A stretch of DNA of 8,854 bases from an uncultured Limnohabitans sp. (GTDB taxonomy: Bacteria > Pseudomonadota > Gammaproteobacteria > Burkholderiales > Burkholderiaceae_C), in the NCBI RefSeq assembly GCF_937889215.1, contig NZ_CALBEX010000483.1, positions 1-8,854 of the forward strand, written 5' to 3'. The notes beneath the pieces were generated by a model. The model had not been told where the DNA came from and searched no databases. It worked only from the letters and a program-made list of their open reading frames with translations. How positions within the stretch are numbered: the stretch's first letter is position 1; each line of letters starts with the position of its first letter. The translations under genes and the position numbers were made by a program. Positions 3,875-8,854 of the stretch are shown here, piece after piece.

Positions 3875-4630
3875 TCAGATTACCTTTGCAACGTTTTTCA
3901 ATTTATCCACCAGCGTGGCGACATCGGGCACCATGATGCCGGCGCTGCGCTTGGCCGGCTCGGCCACTTTCAGGGTCTTGATGCGGGGGGCCACATCGAC
4001 ACCCAAATCTTCGGGCTTGAAGATGTCGAGCTGTTTTTTCTTGGCCTTCATGATGTTGGGCAGCGTCACGTAACGCGGCTCGTTCAGGCGCAAGTCGGTG
4101 GTCACCACCGCAGGCAGGCCGACGCTGAGCACTTCAAGGCCACCATCGATCTCGCGTGTGACATGGGCTTTGCCGTCCACGATCTCAACCTTGGAGGCAA
4201 ACGTGGCTTGGGGCAAGTCGGCCAAAGCTGCCAACATCTGGCCGGTTTGGTTGCAATCGTCGTCAATGGCTTGTTTGCCCAAAATGATCAGGCCTGGCTG
4301 CTCTTTGTCGACCAATGCTTTGAGCAACTTGGCCACGGCCAAGGGCTGCAGGTCCAGATCGGCTGGGGTCTCGACCAGGATGCCGCGATCGGCACCAATG
4401 GCCATGGCGGTGCGCAAGGTTTCCTGGCACTGGGTCACGCCGCAAGACACAGCGATGACTTCGGTGGCAAAACCTTTTTCTTTCAGGCGCACGGCTTCTT
4501 CGACAGCGATCTCGTCAAAGGGGTTCATGCTCATCTTGACGTTGGCGATGTCCACGCCGGAACCATCGGACTTGACGCGTACCTTGACGTTGTAGTCCAC
4601 CACCCGCTTCACGGGAACCAGAATTTTCAT
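3875..4630 (-). CDS. etfB: Electron transfer flavoprotein subunit beta
   Basis: Beta subunit of ETF; it binds AMP structurally and carries the recognition loop that docks on acyl-CoA dehydrogenases. It has 251 residues, the normal size. The family start [14 protein letters not shown] is present, as are [15 protein letters not shown] (36-50), [15 protein letters not shown] (118-132), and the beta signature spanning 157-199 ([31 protein letters not shown]). The [10 protein letters not shown] stretch is the conserved lysine-rich loop next to the dehydrogenase contact region. The ATG at 4628-4630 has GGAGAT (4637-4642) six bases upstream. It is first in the etfBA pair and is divergent from the TRAP transporter operon. 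A near-perfect palindrome 53 bases before the start (4684-4698) is a candidate control site. Confidence 0.97.
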
Positions 4631-4683
4631 GAAAGCATCTCCATTGATATCAAACCAGAACGCCTTGAAACGCCAGCACGAGG

Positions 4684-4698
4684 TTGACGTTACGTAAA
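4684..4698. promoter_or_regulatory. 15-bp palindrome, candidate LiuR/MerR-type operator for etfBA
   Basis: TTGACGT (4684-4690) and ACGTAAA (4692-4698) are inverted about T4691, with six of seven pairs matching. It lies in the 5' leader or promoter of etfB. From memory, ACGT-centred TTTACGT half-sites resemble the operator proposed by comparative genomics for LiuR, a MerR-family regulator of branched-chain amino acid and acyl-CoA catabolism whose predicted regulon can include etfBA. The palindrome is seen in the sequence; the assignment to LiuR is inference. Confidence 0.4.
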
Positions 4699-4821
4699 CT
4701 TCAATTGTGCATCAAAACAGCAATCGGGAAGCCCTGAAGGCGAGAAAAAAGCACGATCGTTCGTATTTTAGGCGCGATTTTTGAGAACCATCTTGGTCAC
4801 CCGCGGGCTTGACCCCCGGGA

Positions 4822-4847
4822 ATTCACCGACCAACCGGTAGGTGAAT
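4822..4847. promoter_or_regulatory. 26-bp dyad, candidate operator of the TRAP operon
   Basis: Arms ATTCACC (4822-4828) and GGTGAAT (4841-4847) pair perfectly. Inside them ACC (4830-4832) pairs with GGT (4837-4839), with one mismatch at 4829/4840. It ends five bases before a possible -35 box of dctP. The size and position suit a dimeric repressor or activator. No regulator gene is in the window, so the protein is unknown. Confidence 0.4.
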
Positions 4848-4852
4848 CAGGG

Positions 4853-4879
4853 TTAACATTGATTTCGCGATTGTTTAAT
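4853..4879 (+). promoter_or_regulatory. Possible sigma-70 promoter for dctP
   Basis: TTAACA (4853-4858) and TTTAAT (4874-4879) each match the -35 and -10 consensus at five of six bases, but the spacer is only 15 bases. Transcription would start near 4886, giving a leader of about 39 bases before dctP. It lies immediately beyond the 4822-4847 dyad and overlaps the CGATT/AATCG inverted repeat. Confidence 0.3.
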
Positions 4880-4924
4880 CGGCATTACGATTATGTTTTG
4901 TAACCAAATCAACGGGGCAATTGG

Positions 4925-5941
4925 ATGAAAAAAACTTTGACTTACGTGGCCGCAGCGGCCCTGGCCAGCTTCGCCACTCTGGCGCAAGCCCAAACCGTGT
5001 TGACCGTCTCGAGCTGGGTCCCTCCCACGCACGGCCTGTCGGTTTCGCAAAAAGAATGGTGCGACGACCTGGCAGCCAAAACTTCCAAGCGCGTTCGTTG
5101 CAACATCCTGCCCAGGGCTGTGACGCCCGCGCCCGGCACTTTTGACGCGGTCAAAAATGGCTTGGTTGATGTGTCGTTCACCGTGCACGGTTACACACCC
5201 GGACGTTTTGTCCTCTCCCAAATGGCCGAGTTTCCATTTTTGGGCGACCGTGCAGAGCCCTTGTCAGTGGCCTTCAACCGCATTGCCGCCAAAAATTCCG
5301 AGTTCGAAGCAGAACACCAAGGTGTGAAAGTTCTGGGGTACTTCACCCACGGCCCGGGCATTGTGTTCAACACCAAAAAACCCATCACCCGCGTGGAAGA
5401 CCTCTCAGGCCTGAAATTCCGAGTAGGCGGCGGCATGGTCAACGAGATCTCCAAAACCCTGGACATGAACGTCACCCTCAAGCCAGCGCCTGAGTCTTAC
5501 GAACTGCTGTCAAGCGGCGTGATGGATGGCACCTTGTTCCCCGCCGAGTCCACCGACTCCTTCAAGATCGACAAGATCATCAAGCACGCCACCCAGTTCC
5601 CCGGCGGTCTGTACAACACCAGTTTCGTCTTCATGATGAACCCGGCCAAATACAACAGCCTCTCGGCCGAAGACAAAAAAGTCGTGGACGAGTTGTCGGG
5701 TGAAGCCGTCGCCCGTCGTTTTGGCCAAGCTTGGGACCGGGTGGACGCCCGTGCTTTGACGAACATGCAAAAAAATGGCGTGAAAGTCATCAAGGCTGAC
5801 AACAACTTTGTCAGTGGCGTGACCATCCGCGTGAGCAAACTCGAACGCGATTGGGCGCAAGCTGCCAAAGCCAAAGGCCTGAAAGACCCATCGGGCACAT
5901 TGGCTGAATTCCGTGCTGAAATCGCCAAACTGCAAAAGTAA
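4925..5941 (+). CDS. dctP: TRAP transporter substrate-binding protein, DctP family
   Basis: Periplasmic binding protein of a tripartite ATP-independent (TRAP) transporter; it captures an organic anion and delivers it to the DctQ/DctM membrane pair. It has 338 residues, normal for the family. A clear Sec signal peptide is seen: MKKTLTYV, a hydrophobic core, then cleavage after ALAQA near residue 22. The mature domain shows GYTPGRFVLSQMAEFPF (89-105) and GLKFRVGGG (162-170), whose Arg166 aligns with the arginine that usually grips the substrate carboxylate. The PAPESYELLSSGVMDG segment (188-202) and the FVFMMNPAKYNSLS segment (235-247) are also typical. Cys46 and Cys59 are the only cysteines in the mature protein and could form a disulfide. 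The ATG at 4925 has a weak GGGG seven bases upstream, but the signal peptide supports it. The symbol is at family level: the ligand could be a dicarboxylate, a keto acid, an aromatic acid or another anion. Confidence 0.92.
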   Translation: MKKTLTYVAAAALASFATLAQAQTVLTVSSWVPPTHGLSVSQKEWCDDLAAKTSKRVRCNILPRAVTPAPGTFDAVKNGLVDVSFTVHGYTPGRFVLSQMAEFPFLGDRAEPLSVAFNRIAAKNSEFEAEHQGVKVLGYFTHGPGIVFNTKKPITRVEDLSGLKFRVGGGMVNEISKTLDMNVTLKPAPESYELLSSGVMDGTLFPAESTDSFKIDKIIKHATQFPGGLYNTSFVFMMNPAKYNSLSAEDKKVVDELSGEAVARRFGQAWDRVDARALTNMQKNGVKVIKADNNFVSGVTIRVSKLERDWAQAAKAKGLKDPSGTLAEFRAEIAKLQK

Positions 5942-5957
5942 AATTGATCGGGTATGC

Positions 5958-5977
5958 CCTGGGTGAATCACCCAAGG
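5958..5977 (+). other. Hairpin downstream of dctP
   Basis: TGGGTG (5960-5965) and CACCCA (5969-5974) form a perfect 6-bp stem with a 3-base loop, extended by CC/GG across a one-base bulge. It has no T-run. It lies between the dctP stop and the strong terminator, so it may protect the 3' end of the dctP message from exonucleases. Confidence 0.5.
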
Positions 5978-5992
5978 TGAGGCACGCACCAG

Positions 5993-6026
5993 CGGTATTT
6001 GCCCTCTCAGCAAATACCGTTTTTTT
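5993..6026 (+). terminator. Intrinsic terminator between dctP and dctQ
   Basis: CGGTATTTGC (5993-6002) and GCAAATACCG (6010-6019) form a perfect 10-bp stem with a 7-base loop, followed directly by seven Ts (6020-6026). It is a textbook Rho-independent terminator inside the operon. Partial termination here would give much binding-protein message and less dctQM message, a common arrangement in binding-protein transporters. The T-run abuts the ATG at 6027. Confidence 0.93.
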
Positions 6027-6521
6027 ATGGGTGACAAGTTGAAAAAAACTCTCGAAATTTTGTGCGGCACTCTGGCTGGCTTGGCCTTGTTCGCCATCAT
6101 GGTGCTGACGTTCCTGGATGTCTCTGGCCGGAAAATTCTGTCGCAATCCATCACGGGCTCTTTGGAGTTGACCGAGTTGCTGATGGTGGTCGTCATTTTT
6201 GGCGCACTGCCCTTGGTGTCCCTCAAAGGCGAACATGTGGTGTTTGACTCGCTGGACGTGCTGCTGCCGCGCCTGGTCAGGAAAATCCAGCAAGGCCTGA
6301 TTCATCTGGCTTGCGCAGGCTTGCTGCTCGGGCTGGCTTACCTGATGTGGCAAACCGGCGGAGAGTTTGCAGCCACAGGCGAGACCACGGCGCAACTGAA
6401 AATCACCAAAGCCCCGTTCATTCAAGGCATGGGCGTGCTGTGTGGCCTCGCTGGCCTGGTGCACTTGGCCAAAGCCTTCTGGTCGAGAGATGAAACCACT
6501 TCCGACGGAGGCACGCTGTGA
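6027..6521 (+). CDS. dctQ: TRAP transporter small membrane subunit, DctQ family
   Basis: Four-helix inner-membrane subunit of the TRAP transporter. It pairs with DctM and helps dock the binding protein. It has 164 residues, with hydrophobic helices near 9-31, 44-65, 86-110 and 128-150. Typical family segments are FLDVSGRKIL (29-38), SLELTELLM (45-53) and LVSLKGEHVVFD (63-74). The start is uncertain. The ATG at 6027 follows directly on the terminator T-run and has no ribosome binding site. A TTG at 6039 is in frame, is preceded by GGGTGA (6029-6034), and would give a 160-residue protein with the same helices. The stop overlaps the GTG of dctM in GTGA, so the two are translationally coupled. 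Expression depends on read-through of the upstream terminator unless there is an unseen internal promoter. Confidence 0.92.
   Translation: MGDKLKKTLEILCGTLAGLALFAIMVLTFLDVSGRKILSQSITGSLELTELLMVVVIFGALPLVSLKGEHVVFDSLDVLLPRLVRKIQQGLIHLACAGLLLGLAYLMWQTGGEFAATGETTAQLKITKAPFIQGMGVLCGLAGLVHLAKAFWSRDETTSDGGTL
6029..6034 (+). promoter_or_regulatory. Possible ribosome binding site favouring a TTG start of dctQ
   Basis: GGGTGA contains GGTGA, which pairs with the 3' end of 16S rRNA, and lies four bases before TTG at 6039. No purine-rich site exists before the ATG at 6027, where the upstream bases are the terminator T-run. The evidence is suggestive only, since the pairing is short. Confidence 0.35.
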
Positions 6522-7810
6522 CCGAAGCCTTGCTGGGATTTTTGGCCATCTTCGTGTTGGCCCTTTTGCGCATGCCTTTGGCTTTTTCCATGGGCCTGGT
6601 TGGCATTGTGGGCATTGCCCTGACTCGCGGCTGGTTGCCCGCCTTGGCCAGTACCGCCCAGGTGGTTCACGAGACCGGTTTCGCCTACACCTTGTCGGTC
6701 ATCCCGCTGTTCATTTTGATGGGCAATTTTGTGGCCCGTGCAGGTTTAGCGCATGAGCTGTTTCATGCGGCCTACACCTTCATTGGCCATCGAAAAGGGG
6801 GCTTGGCGCACGCCACCATTGCCGCCTGTGCTGGGTTTGGGGCCATCTGCGGCTCGTCCATTGCCACCGCTGCGACGATGAGCAAAGTGGCTTACCCGTC
6901 CATGAAAAAACTGGGCTACAGCGACGCCATGTCCACGGGCGTGATTGCCGCGGGCGGCACCTTGGGCATCATGATCCCGCCCTCCACCATTTTGGTCATC
7001 TACGGCATCATCACAGAAACCCACATCGGCAAACTGTTTGCGGCCGGGGTATTGCCGGGCATCTTGACGGCCGGCCTGATGATGCTGGCGGTGGTGCTGA
7101 TGACTTGGCATAACCCGGAACATGCCCCTGCGGGCGAAAAGTTCAGTTGGGCTCAACGCATGAAGGCCCTGCGCGGCATCTGGGGCGTGCTGCTCTTGGT
7201 CGTGCTGGTGCTGGGCGGCATTTATGGCGGCTTTTTCACCGCCACCGAAGGCGCAGGCATGGGGGCCATGGGGGCATTTTTGTTTGCACTGGCGCGCAAA
7301 GCCTTGAGCTGGAAGGTGCTCATGCAGGTGCTGGTTGAATCGGCTCGAACCACCGCCATGCTGTTCACCTTGCTGATTGCCGCCACGATCTTCGCCAACT
7401 TTGTGAACTACACCAGCTTGCCGTTTGAGCTCAAGGACTGGATCACCGGCCTGGGCCTCTCGCCCATCATGATCGTGGCTGCCATGATGCTGGTGTACGT
7501 GCTGCTAGGCACCGTGATGGAAGAGCTGACCATGGTACTGCTGACCATTCCGCTGTTCTTTCCCATCGTGGTGGATCTGGGCTTTGACCCGGTTTGGTTC
7601 GGAGTGCTGATCGTCATGGTGATTCAGATTGGCCTGATCTCTCCGCCTGTGGGCATGAACCTCTTTGTGCTCAACACCTTGCTGCCCAACGTGGGGCTGG
7701 GCCCCATCTTCCGGGGTGTCTGGCCCCTGGTGCTGGTGCTGGTCATCACGCTGGGCATTTTGCTGGCCTTCCCTGGCATCAGTCTGTGGCTGCCTTCGAT
7801 GATGGATTGA
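6518..7810 (+). CDS. dctM: TRAP transporter large membrane subunit, DctM family
   Basis: Large transport subunit of the TRAP system, a 430-residue inner-membrane protein of the ion-transporter superfamily that moves the substrate with a sodium or proton gradient. Conserved segments are visible in order: PLFILMGNFVARAG (63-76), CGSSIATAATMSKVAYPSM (111-129), GTLGIMIPPS (147-156), GGFFTATEGAG (237-247), MEELTMVLLTIPLFFP (334-349) and ISPPVGMNLFVLN (374-386). The two hairpin-loop regions around IPPS and SPPVG form the transport site in solved relatives. The start is GTG at 6518-6520, overlapping the dctQ TGA, with GGAGG (6507-6511) six bases upstream. The length is normal and no residue is obviously missing. 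Its last 32 bases overlap the end of the convergent MscS gene, and no terminator lies between them. Confidence 0.96.
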   Translation: MTEALLGFLAIFVLALLRMPLAFSMGLVGIVGIALTRGWLPALASTAQVVHETGFAYTLSVIPLFILMGNFVARAGLAHELFHAAYTFIGHRKGGLAHATIAACAGFGAICGSSIATAATMSKVAYPSMKKLGYSDAMSTGVIAAGGTLGIMIPPSTILVIYGIITETHIGKLFAAGVLPGILTAGLMMLAVVLMTWHNPEHAPAGEKFSWAQRMKALRGIWGVLLLVVLVLGGIYGGFFTATEGAGMGAMGAFLFALARKALSWKVLMQVLVESARTTAMLFTLLIAATIFANFVNYTSLPFELKDWITGLGLSPIMIVAAMMLVYVLLGTVMEELTMVLLTIPLFFPIVVDLGFDPVWFGVLIVMVIQIGLISPPVGMNLFVLNTLLPNVGLGPIFRGVWPLVLVLVITLGILLAFPGISLWLPSMMD

Positions 7811-8606
7811 CCATGTGCATGACGCGCTGCGGGTACGGGATTTCGATCTTGTGCTCGCGCAGCGCGGCCAAGATCAGCATGTTGATGGTCGAGCGCAGCG
7901 CCAGTTGGCCGTTTTCCGGATCTTCAATCCAGTAACTCACGGTGAACTCCAAGCCGTCCGCGCCAAATTGGCTCAGGAAGGCATTGGGTGCCGGATCGCG
8001 CAACACACGCGGCTGGCTCTCGCAGGCATCGATCAAAAGCCGGCGCACCAAGTCCACATCGCTGTCGTATGCCACAGAGACCAGCGTGGTCTGCGCCATT
8101 TTGGTGTCTTGCAAAGTGAAATTTTCAACCCTGTTGATGATCAGCATCTCATTGGGCACGATGGACTCGCGCCCGTTCACAGCGCGGATCACGGTGTAAC
8201 GCGCTTTGATGTCCACGATGGTGCCTTCAAAGCCATCAACCAGCACCATGTCCCCAATGCGCATGCTGCGCTCGGCCAAGATGACGAAGCCGCTGACGTA
8301 ATTGGAGGCCAGCTTTTGCAAGCCAAAACCAATGCCCACACCCACCGCGCCGCCCAACACCGACAAAGCGGTCAGGTCAATGCCCACCGACGACAGCGCC
8401 AGCAGCAAGCCCACAAACATGAGCAAGGCCCGCACTGTGTTGCTGATGACCTTGCGCAGTGACAAGTCGCTGCGTGTGGCCGATTTGAGCAACCGCGCCT
8501 CGATCGCCGCTGACACCCACAGCGCCACAATCAGCACGGCTCCGGCCGTGAGCGCACCTTCGATCAAGGTGCGCACCGACAGGACACTGCCGCCAATTTT
8601 CCAGTT
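7779..8606 (-). CDS. MscS-family mechanosensitive channel, N-terminus replaced at a junction
   Basis: These 275 residues hold a whole MscS core. There are three membrane helices (about 12-33, 54-76 and 79-109), the last being the Gly/Ala-rich pore helix AVGVGIGFGLQKLASNYVSG, then the beta domain with RIGDMVLVDGFEG and VPNEMLI (150-156), then the alpha/beta C-terminal domain ending at a TGA at 7779-7781. The family forms heptameric inner-membrane channels that release solutes on osmotic downshift. No start codon with a ribosome binding site precedes the first helix. Instead the frame continues past 8606 into kinase-like sequence, to a nominal GTG at 8822 and on to the window edge. The true bacterial N-terminus, probably with extra helices as in many proteobacterial homologues, is missing. 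Codon use matches the other bacterial genes. It converges on dctM. Confidence 0.88.
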   Translation of the reverse strand, partial: NWKIGGSVLSVRTLIEGALTAGAVLIVALWVSAAIEARLLKSATRSDLSLRKVISNTVRALLMFVGLLLALSSVGIDLTALSVLGGAVGVGIGFGLQKLASNYVSGFVILAERSMRIGDMVLVDGFEGTIVDIKARYTVIRAVNGRESIVPNEMLIINRVENFTLQDTKMAQTTLVSVAYDSDVDLVRRLLIDACESQPRVLRDPAPNAFLSQFGADGLEFTVSYWIEDPENGQLALRSTINMLILAALREHKIEIPYPQRVMHMVNPSSKAATD

Positions 8607-8610
8607 GATT
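8598..8610. other. Junction between bacterial channel and eukaryote-like kinase sequence
   Basis: On the minus strand the kinase-like peptide ends with NELDQI (ATC at 8607-8609) and the channel sequence begins about NWKIGG (from 8606). MOK-type kinases continue after DQI with a KIH-containing stretch, not with a membrane helix, so the break is within a few codons of 8606. The shared Asn/Lys/Ile codons leave room for short microhomology. No insertion-sequence end, att-like repeat or target duplication is visible. Confidence 0.75.
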
Positions 8611-8854
8611 TGGTCCAGCTCGTTTGTGCCTGGGAACAACGGGAACAGACTGACTATTTCGAAGAACACGCAGCCGACACCCCAGATGTCCATCTTATAG
8701 TTGTAGAAGCCGTCTGTCAGCAAACATTCCGGCGCTCGATACCAGCGTGTCGAGATGTACTCGGTGTAGGGCTGTTTGCTGTAGATGCCGCGGCACGAAC
8801 CAAGGTCGGCGAGCTTCAGCACGTCGTCCGAAATGAGAATGTTCTCCTGCGAAC
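8607..8854 (-). CDS. Eukaryotic MOK/RAGE-like Ser/Thr kinase fragment (partial at both ends)
   Basis: About 82 residues of a eukaryotic protein kinase domain of the MOK (RAGE, RCK) family are read from the right edge. In order: ENILI (3-7) with the metal-binding Asn4 of the catalytic loop, ADLGSCRG (15-22) where DLG replaces the usual DFG, a TEY activation loop (30-32), STRWYRAPECLLTDG (34-48) with the APE motif, and KMDIWGVGC (53-61), the DxWxxG of subdomain IX. It ends with SLFPLFPGTNELDQI. TEY plus APECLLTDG points to MOK rather than to the related MAK and ICK kinases. Bacterial Hanks-type kinases lack this activation loop. The fragment lacks the ATP-binding lobe (beyond the edge) and everything after subdomain IX, so it cannot be a working kinase as it stands. 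It is in frame with the channel gene downstream. Host DNA joined by assembly or amplification is the likeliest source. Confidence 0.85.
8847..8854 (-). other. Possible 3' splice acceptor at the window edge
   Basis: Read on the minus strand the window opens with GTTCGCAG followed by GAGAAC (Glu-Asn). Kinases of this family have Lys-Pro before Glu-Asn, but the frame here gives Ser-Gln. An intron ending in CAG at 8847, phase 0 between Pro and Glu, would explain the mismatch. Only eight bases are visible, so this is a suggestion. Confidence 0.35.

Follow-up and report, generated by a model that had tools for sequence, protein, structure and literature searches.

A reading frame from a MOK-type kinase fragment into a Limnohabitans MscS channel is probably an artificial join at a contig end

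Is a frame that leads from a eukaryotic kinase straight into a bacterial channel a gene, or are two unrelated DNAs joined there? The window that we analyzed, 8,854 bases in length, is the entire contig C483 of a Limnohabitans-type MAG (607 contigs totalling 2,723,130 bases; completeness 82.41%, contamination 2.87%). The sequence past 8854 had been marked for a check; the window being the complete contig, there is none.

A kinase fragment and a channel in one frame

A minus-strand frame of 357 residues (8852-7779) is open throughout and runs off the source end, with a MOK/LF4-type kinase fragment at its start and an MscS channel at its end. In a Pfam search of the frame, residues 3-88 matched Pkinase (E 2.6e-18), and the three MscS domains together lie within residues 140-338 (beta-domain E 5.7e-19). 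The open frame and these domains bear out the original prediction of a continuous minus-strand kinase-MscS frame. The kinase is confined to the last 230 bases, at the very end of the contig. Base composition was rejected as a marker of the join, as there is no clear step between the kinase (GC 0.547, GC3 0.773) and the MscS part (GC 0.587, GC3 0.784).

Table 1. Features around the kinase-channel frame.
Feature	Position	Strand	Basis
Likely eukaryotic intron 3' end, GTTCGCAG ahead of exon GAGAAC	8847..8854	-	Sequence; inferred from protein
MOK/LF4-type kinase exon fragment, ENIL to PGT	8625..8846	-	Pfam PF00069; 98% identity to P0001-P0003
Activation loop with DLG, TEY, APE, DxWxxG	within 8625..8846	-	Sequence
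Join zone, 21 bases; as protein, NELDQIN belongs natively to both parents	8604..8624	-	Alignment ends
Limnohabitans MscS-family channel, C-terminal part	7782..8603	-	Pfam, relatives; native protein ~430 aa, first ~149 residues gone
TRAP transporter DctM, convergent neighbour	6518..7810	+	Adjoins the channel in L022 too; marks normal bacterial context

The kinase piece, of 82 residues, covers only positions 127-203 of the 263 in the Pkinase profile, and so the domain is incomplete, missing the N-lobe, the catalytic HRD loop and the lower C-lobe. It carries TEY (8765-8757), APE (8735-8727) and DIWGVG (8690-8673), confirming the TEY, APE and DxWxxG motifs noticed earlier. According to PMC4171540, a TXY motif in a CDK-like activation loop marks the RCK kinases, to which MOK/LF4 belongs, and the TEY of the window is such a motif. 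Searching with residues 1-84 returned 2,580 matches, and we considered the best 120. The nearest relatives are P0001-P0003, MOK-type proteins of metagenomes that are 98% identical to the query; P0001 bears the name 'renal tumor antigen', which is given as a name of MOK in the same paper (PMC4171540). Two Tetraselmis proteins (P0009 and P0014; taxids 582737 and 63592) are 94-95% identical to residues 1-84, and Chlamydomonas LF4 (P0051) is 94% identical to the kinase piece. After the green algae, the named relatives among the matches listed include haptophytes, a cryptophyte, a diplonemid and land plants. All 120 have kinase Pfam domains only, and every visible organism name is that of a eukaryote. 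This search thus substantiates the predicted eukaryotic MOK identity of the kinase part.

By sequence likeness, the fragment's best named relatives are green algae, not animals. Daphnia or another animal had been suggested as the donor; no animal appears among the names visible in these 120 of 2,580 matches, which are mostly nameless, and the nearest named relatives are green algae. An animal donor is therefore unsupported by the visible names, and 82 residues are not enough to fix the taxon.

The window reads DLG at 8807-8799 in place of DFG; among the 120 MOK relatives listed, DFG is found in 118 and DLG in 2. The DLG may be genuine variation, or may stem from a sequencing error, the tail perhaps being of low depth.

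The first codons of the frame suggest where the exon begins. KP precedes EN[IV]L in 112 of the 120 MOK relatives listed, and the window has SQ (TCG CAG) at this place. Four of those 120, P0001-P0004, share the form xQ-ENIL. P0001-P0003 begin near the ENIL point or carry unrelated residues ahead of it, and P0004 has KP, then ~35 unrelated residues ending in VQ, and then ENIL. The P0004 pattern resembles a read-through intron with a CAG acceptor, which suggests that the first 8 bases of the fragment (8854-8847) are probably an intron 3' end and that the source was unspliced genomic DNA. The predicted MOK piece of about 82 residues thus stands, but its coding probably does not extend right to 8854, since 8854-8847 is probably this intron end.

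We found no other MOK matches in this MAG. Among 90 congeneric genomes the kinase is present in the MAG's own and absent from the other 89. A virus was rejected as the carrier, as none of 25 pattern matches in viral contigs is a relative of the kinase.

A broken channel in an ordinary Limnohabitans neighbourhood

The remainder of the frame is the C-terminal two thirds of an ordinary Limnohabitans MscS-family protein of ~430 residues. It has PF21088, PF00924 and PF21082, corresponding to the TM2/3 helices, the beta-domain and the C-terminal domain of MscS, and its best relative, P0121, is 92% identical; the Pfam matches and the relatives' channels agree with the MscS identity proposed before. 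Seven other frames scanned in the window are ordinary too: a nitronate monooxygenase, an acyl-CoA dehydrogenase, two electron transfer flavoprotein subunits, DctP, DctQ and DctM. L022, a Limnohabitans MAG contig, is colinear with the window over 3879-8624 at 84% DNA identity (3879 lying near the end of the L022 stretch compared), and this alignment stops at 8624. For a second locus, L024, alignment at a comparable level is confined to the channel (7810-8624) and likewise ends at 8624; the downstream neighbours in L024 are unlike those of the window, whereas those of L022 are the same. Forty of 40 genomes examined, the MAG's own included, match the query, and outside its own genome no match starts before query residue 57; the relatives thus have the channel but not the kinase. 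The colinearity of L022 and the channels of congeneric genomes fit the Limnohabitans-like bacterium that had been assumed.

Another locus, L026 (CALQKH020000022.1), is titled as an Akkermansia muciniphila MAG and has a Limnohabitans-type MscS locus at 89% identity; the title looks wrong.

The L022 channel, an MscS-family protein of 430 residues, runs upstream into its native N-terminus and is preceded, on our reading, by an enoyl-CoA hydratase. The nearest solved relatives of this native protein by sequence are MscK (7uw5), MscM and MscS. The channel of the window has neither its own start nor its N-terminal helices, and searches found the native N-terminus in neither the window nor the MAG. 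The flanking hydratase gave 11 matches in the MAG (best E 1.2e-27), none above 39% identity and so paralogues only. Both the native N-terminus and the adjoining hydratase occur in six of six relatives, which were chosen for holding the channel; the query itself evidently came from one of the six, G007, and in G018 the hydratase is cut by a contig end. Thus, what is missing in the MAG is present in all six chosen relatives, and therefore the assembly broke here, which marks an assembly gap at the channel locus of the MAG (G000). Comparing 121 bases across the join with the MAG's own sequence returned their own place plus ten chance matches of 14-26 bases (E at least 0.286), and searches with the join, the N-terminus and the hydratase found no MAG contig with the true bacterial continuation.

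A seven-residue word at the join

The original prediction placed the junction at a point, 8607/8606. The join itself stands, but its position is better given as a zone of 21 bases, 8624-8604, whose seven residues, NELDQIN, suit both parents. The window reads PGT-NELDQIN-WK here, with kinase to the left and channel to the right. Kinases P0001-P0005 have PGT-NELDQIN-KIH, i.e. GTNELDQINKIH, and the channel P0121 has LVL-NELDQIN-WK, i.e. LVLNELDQINWK. Limnohabitans channels mostly have LVL, then some form of NELDQIS, then WK. The site is followed by W[KR] in 119 of the 120 MscS matches listed, and the exact word NELDQIN is found in three of them, P0121 included. Most other relatives' channel alignments start at 8624-8621.

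NELDQIN is the longest word common to P0121 and each of P0001, P0002, P0003 and P0005, and in each of these P0121-kinase pairs none of 300 shuffles reached a shared word of length 7. We also compared 400 kinase-channel pairs (40 of the 120 listed kinases with 10 of the 120 listed channels, a set not chosen for independence from P0001-P0005 and P0121); NELDQI was the longest word in common for 297 pairs, and NELDQIN for 7. Judging from these protein words, the MOK and MscS families share most of NELDQIN widely, by happenstance. It is possible that NELDQI, being common to MOK kinases and Limnohabitans-type MscS channels, is a hot spot for chimeric joins in freshwater metagenomes.

At the DNA level, mean identity to bacterial relatives in 15-base bins (23 distinct alignments, ungapped) is 0.12-0.45 over 8764-8630, 0.53 in the straddling bin 8629-8615, and 0.64-0.87 over 8614-8435. 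With two families in one frame and the bacterial alignment ending at 8624, the predicted chimeric join of a eukaryotic MOK to a bacterial MscS gains support. The residues NELDQIN are native to both families at the protein level, and it is from these protein words that we infer the 21 identical bases. Bacterial relatives match 13-18 of the window's 21 join bases (29 loci, some from the same record twice; no congener in the DNA alignment is nearer than 87%), and at 24 of the 29 loci CAG stands in place of the window's CAA. The stretch of true identity may therefore be shorter.

An artificial join and its rivals

A shared word at the exact join, a 230-base tail at the contig end, a missing native continuation and 89 congeners without the kinase together indicate a chimeric assembly join. 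We consider it likely that the join is artificial and was probably made by a short-read assembler that passed from Limnohabitans-type MscS into what is probably algal DNA, through 21 bases that the two likely share. Both parents would carry these identical 21 bases, and the assembler, rather than a molecule, would have made the join by running from the MscS gene through the 21-base stretch into eukaryotic DNA; the co-sampled eukaryote would be an alga or a related protist. In short-read assembly, 21 is a common smallest k-mer. One use of MEGAHIT with a k-min of 21 is described in PMC11092197. The frame would be open for no other reason than the common phase in which both proteins read the shared bases, and selection would not be needed. 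As predicted, neither part is intact, and a product would be functionless because the kinase is without its N-lobe and lower C-lobe and the channel without its N-terminal third. Judged on its sequence, the kinase-channel frame would be neither a gene nor a biological feature.

Several observations count against an assembly chimera. There is no clear GC step, the exact word NELDQIN is found in just three of the 120 listed channels, and the search for a MAG contig with the true continuation came up empty. In addition, the GUNC authors call misassemblies relatively rare (PMC8201837).

The main rival is a library chimera, in which algal and bacterial fragments became linked ahead of sequencing, by template switching or ligation at the amplification step, via the same shared stretch. 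An origin of this kind would give the same picture in the assembled sequence. A join within a shared stretch suits chimeras of incomplete extension as well as a k-mer join, and the 230-base tail would correspond to about one to two short reads of usual length. However, such molecules are usually rare and would seldom prevail in an assembly unless depth is low, and we regard this origin as a minor possibility.

Alternatively, microhomology-mediated recombination could have placed eukaryotic DNA in the chromosome of this Limnohabitans and so interrupted its MscS gene. Recent insertion had been named earlier as the interesting alternative, and our results lend it no support. The junction has microhomology at the protein level, which illegitimate recombination could use, and the frame is continuous. 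However, the kinase extends right up to the last base of the contig, the assembly of the MAG breaks at the channel locus, a second junction is not seen, and only one of the 90 genomes of the genus, the MAG's own, has the kinase. We therefore consider a real insertion very improbable, and would say the same of a very recent alga-to-bacterium capture of a piece of a cilium-length kinase, intron end included, as an in-frame hybrid.

Integration of bacterial DNA in a eukaryotic (algal) nuclear genome would account for a kinase end that resembles unspliced genomic DNA with an intron acceptor. It is hard to reconcile with the other 8.6 kb, a bacterial gene array in a Limnohabitans-type MAG bin that is colinear with L022 over 4.7 kb, all of L022 that was compared, and we find it highly implausible.

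Finally, a genuine bacterial family of kinase-MscS fusion genes, for which one open frame of 357 residues might speak, can practically be dismissed: neither the 120 whole-frame matches listed (of 7,998) nor the 120 kinase matches listed (of 2,580) span both parts, and the kinase matches in 14 of 398 other genomes of the bacterial family sample are weak. Specifically, with the whole frame as query, coverage of the frame reaches at most 83% in the best 120 of the 7,998 proteins scored, and none of these 120 shows the kinase motifs that were looked for. The same kinase-channel architecture was found in 0 of 120 and 0 of 120 proteins in the two sets listed. Five MOK words sought in the DNA of 80 named loci occurred in 0 of 80, with the window positive as control. 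The 14 kinase matches have E of 1.7e-5 to 9.9e-4 at 27-35% identity, and on our reading are ordinary bacterial Hanks-type kinases. Among these 80 loci, L057 gave an alignment starting at residue 32; this was rejected as a gapped extension that by chance enters the N-terminus of a native MscS, which also reads NELDQI, with no kinase.

We conclude that, as biology, the frame has no significance, and that it is useful as a caution. A chance word common to two unrelated families can produce, where a contig ends, what seems a seamless in-frame 'fusion', and such a join, without a clear GC step, can pass for a transferred domain. Anyone who draws on this MAG to argue for transfer from eukaryotes to bacteria should first drop the last 230 bases of the contig.

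Compared with known systems, the start of the frame is like a MOK/LF4 kinase, of the RCK family of cilium-length regulators (MAK, ICK and MOK), in its TEY loop, APE, DxWxxG and PGTNELDQIN; it differs in being merely a middle piece of ~82 residues, with DLG and not DFG. The end of the frame is like the Limnohabitans/Comamonadaceae MscS channel (~430 aa) in its three MscS Pfam domains, its 92% identity to P0121 and the neighbours shared with L022, but the first ~149 residues are here replaced by a foreign stretch. The whole is like the chimeric contigs of MAGs, as the GUNC paper (PMC8201837) defines them, in holding pieces of two sources in one contig; it differs in that the foreign part is only 230 bases at the contig end, a length that gene-level tools for contamination would likely miss.
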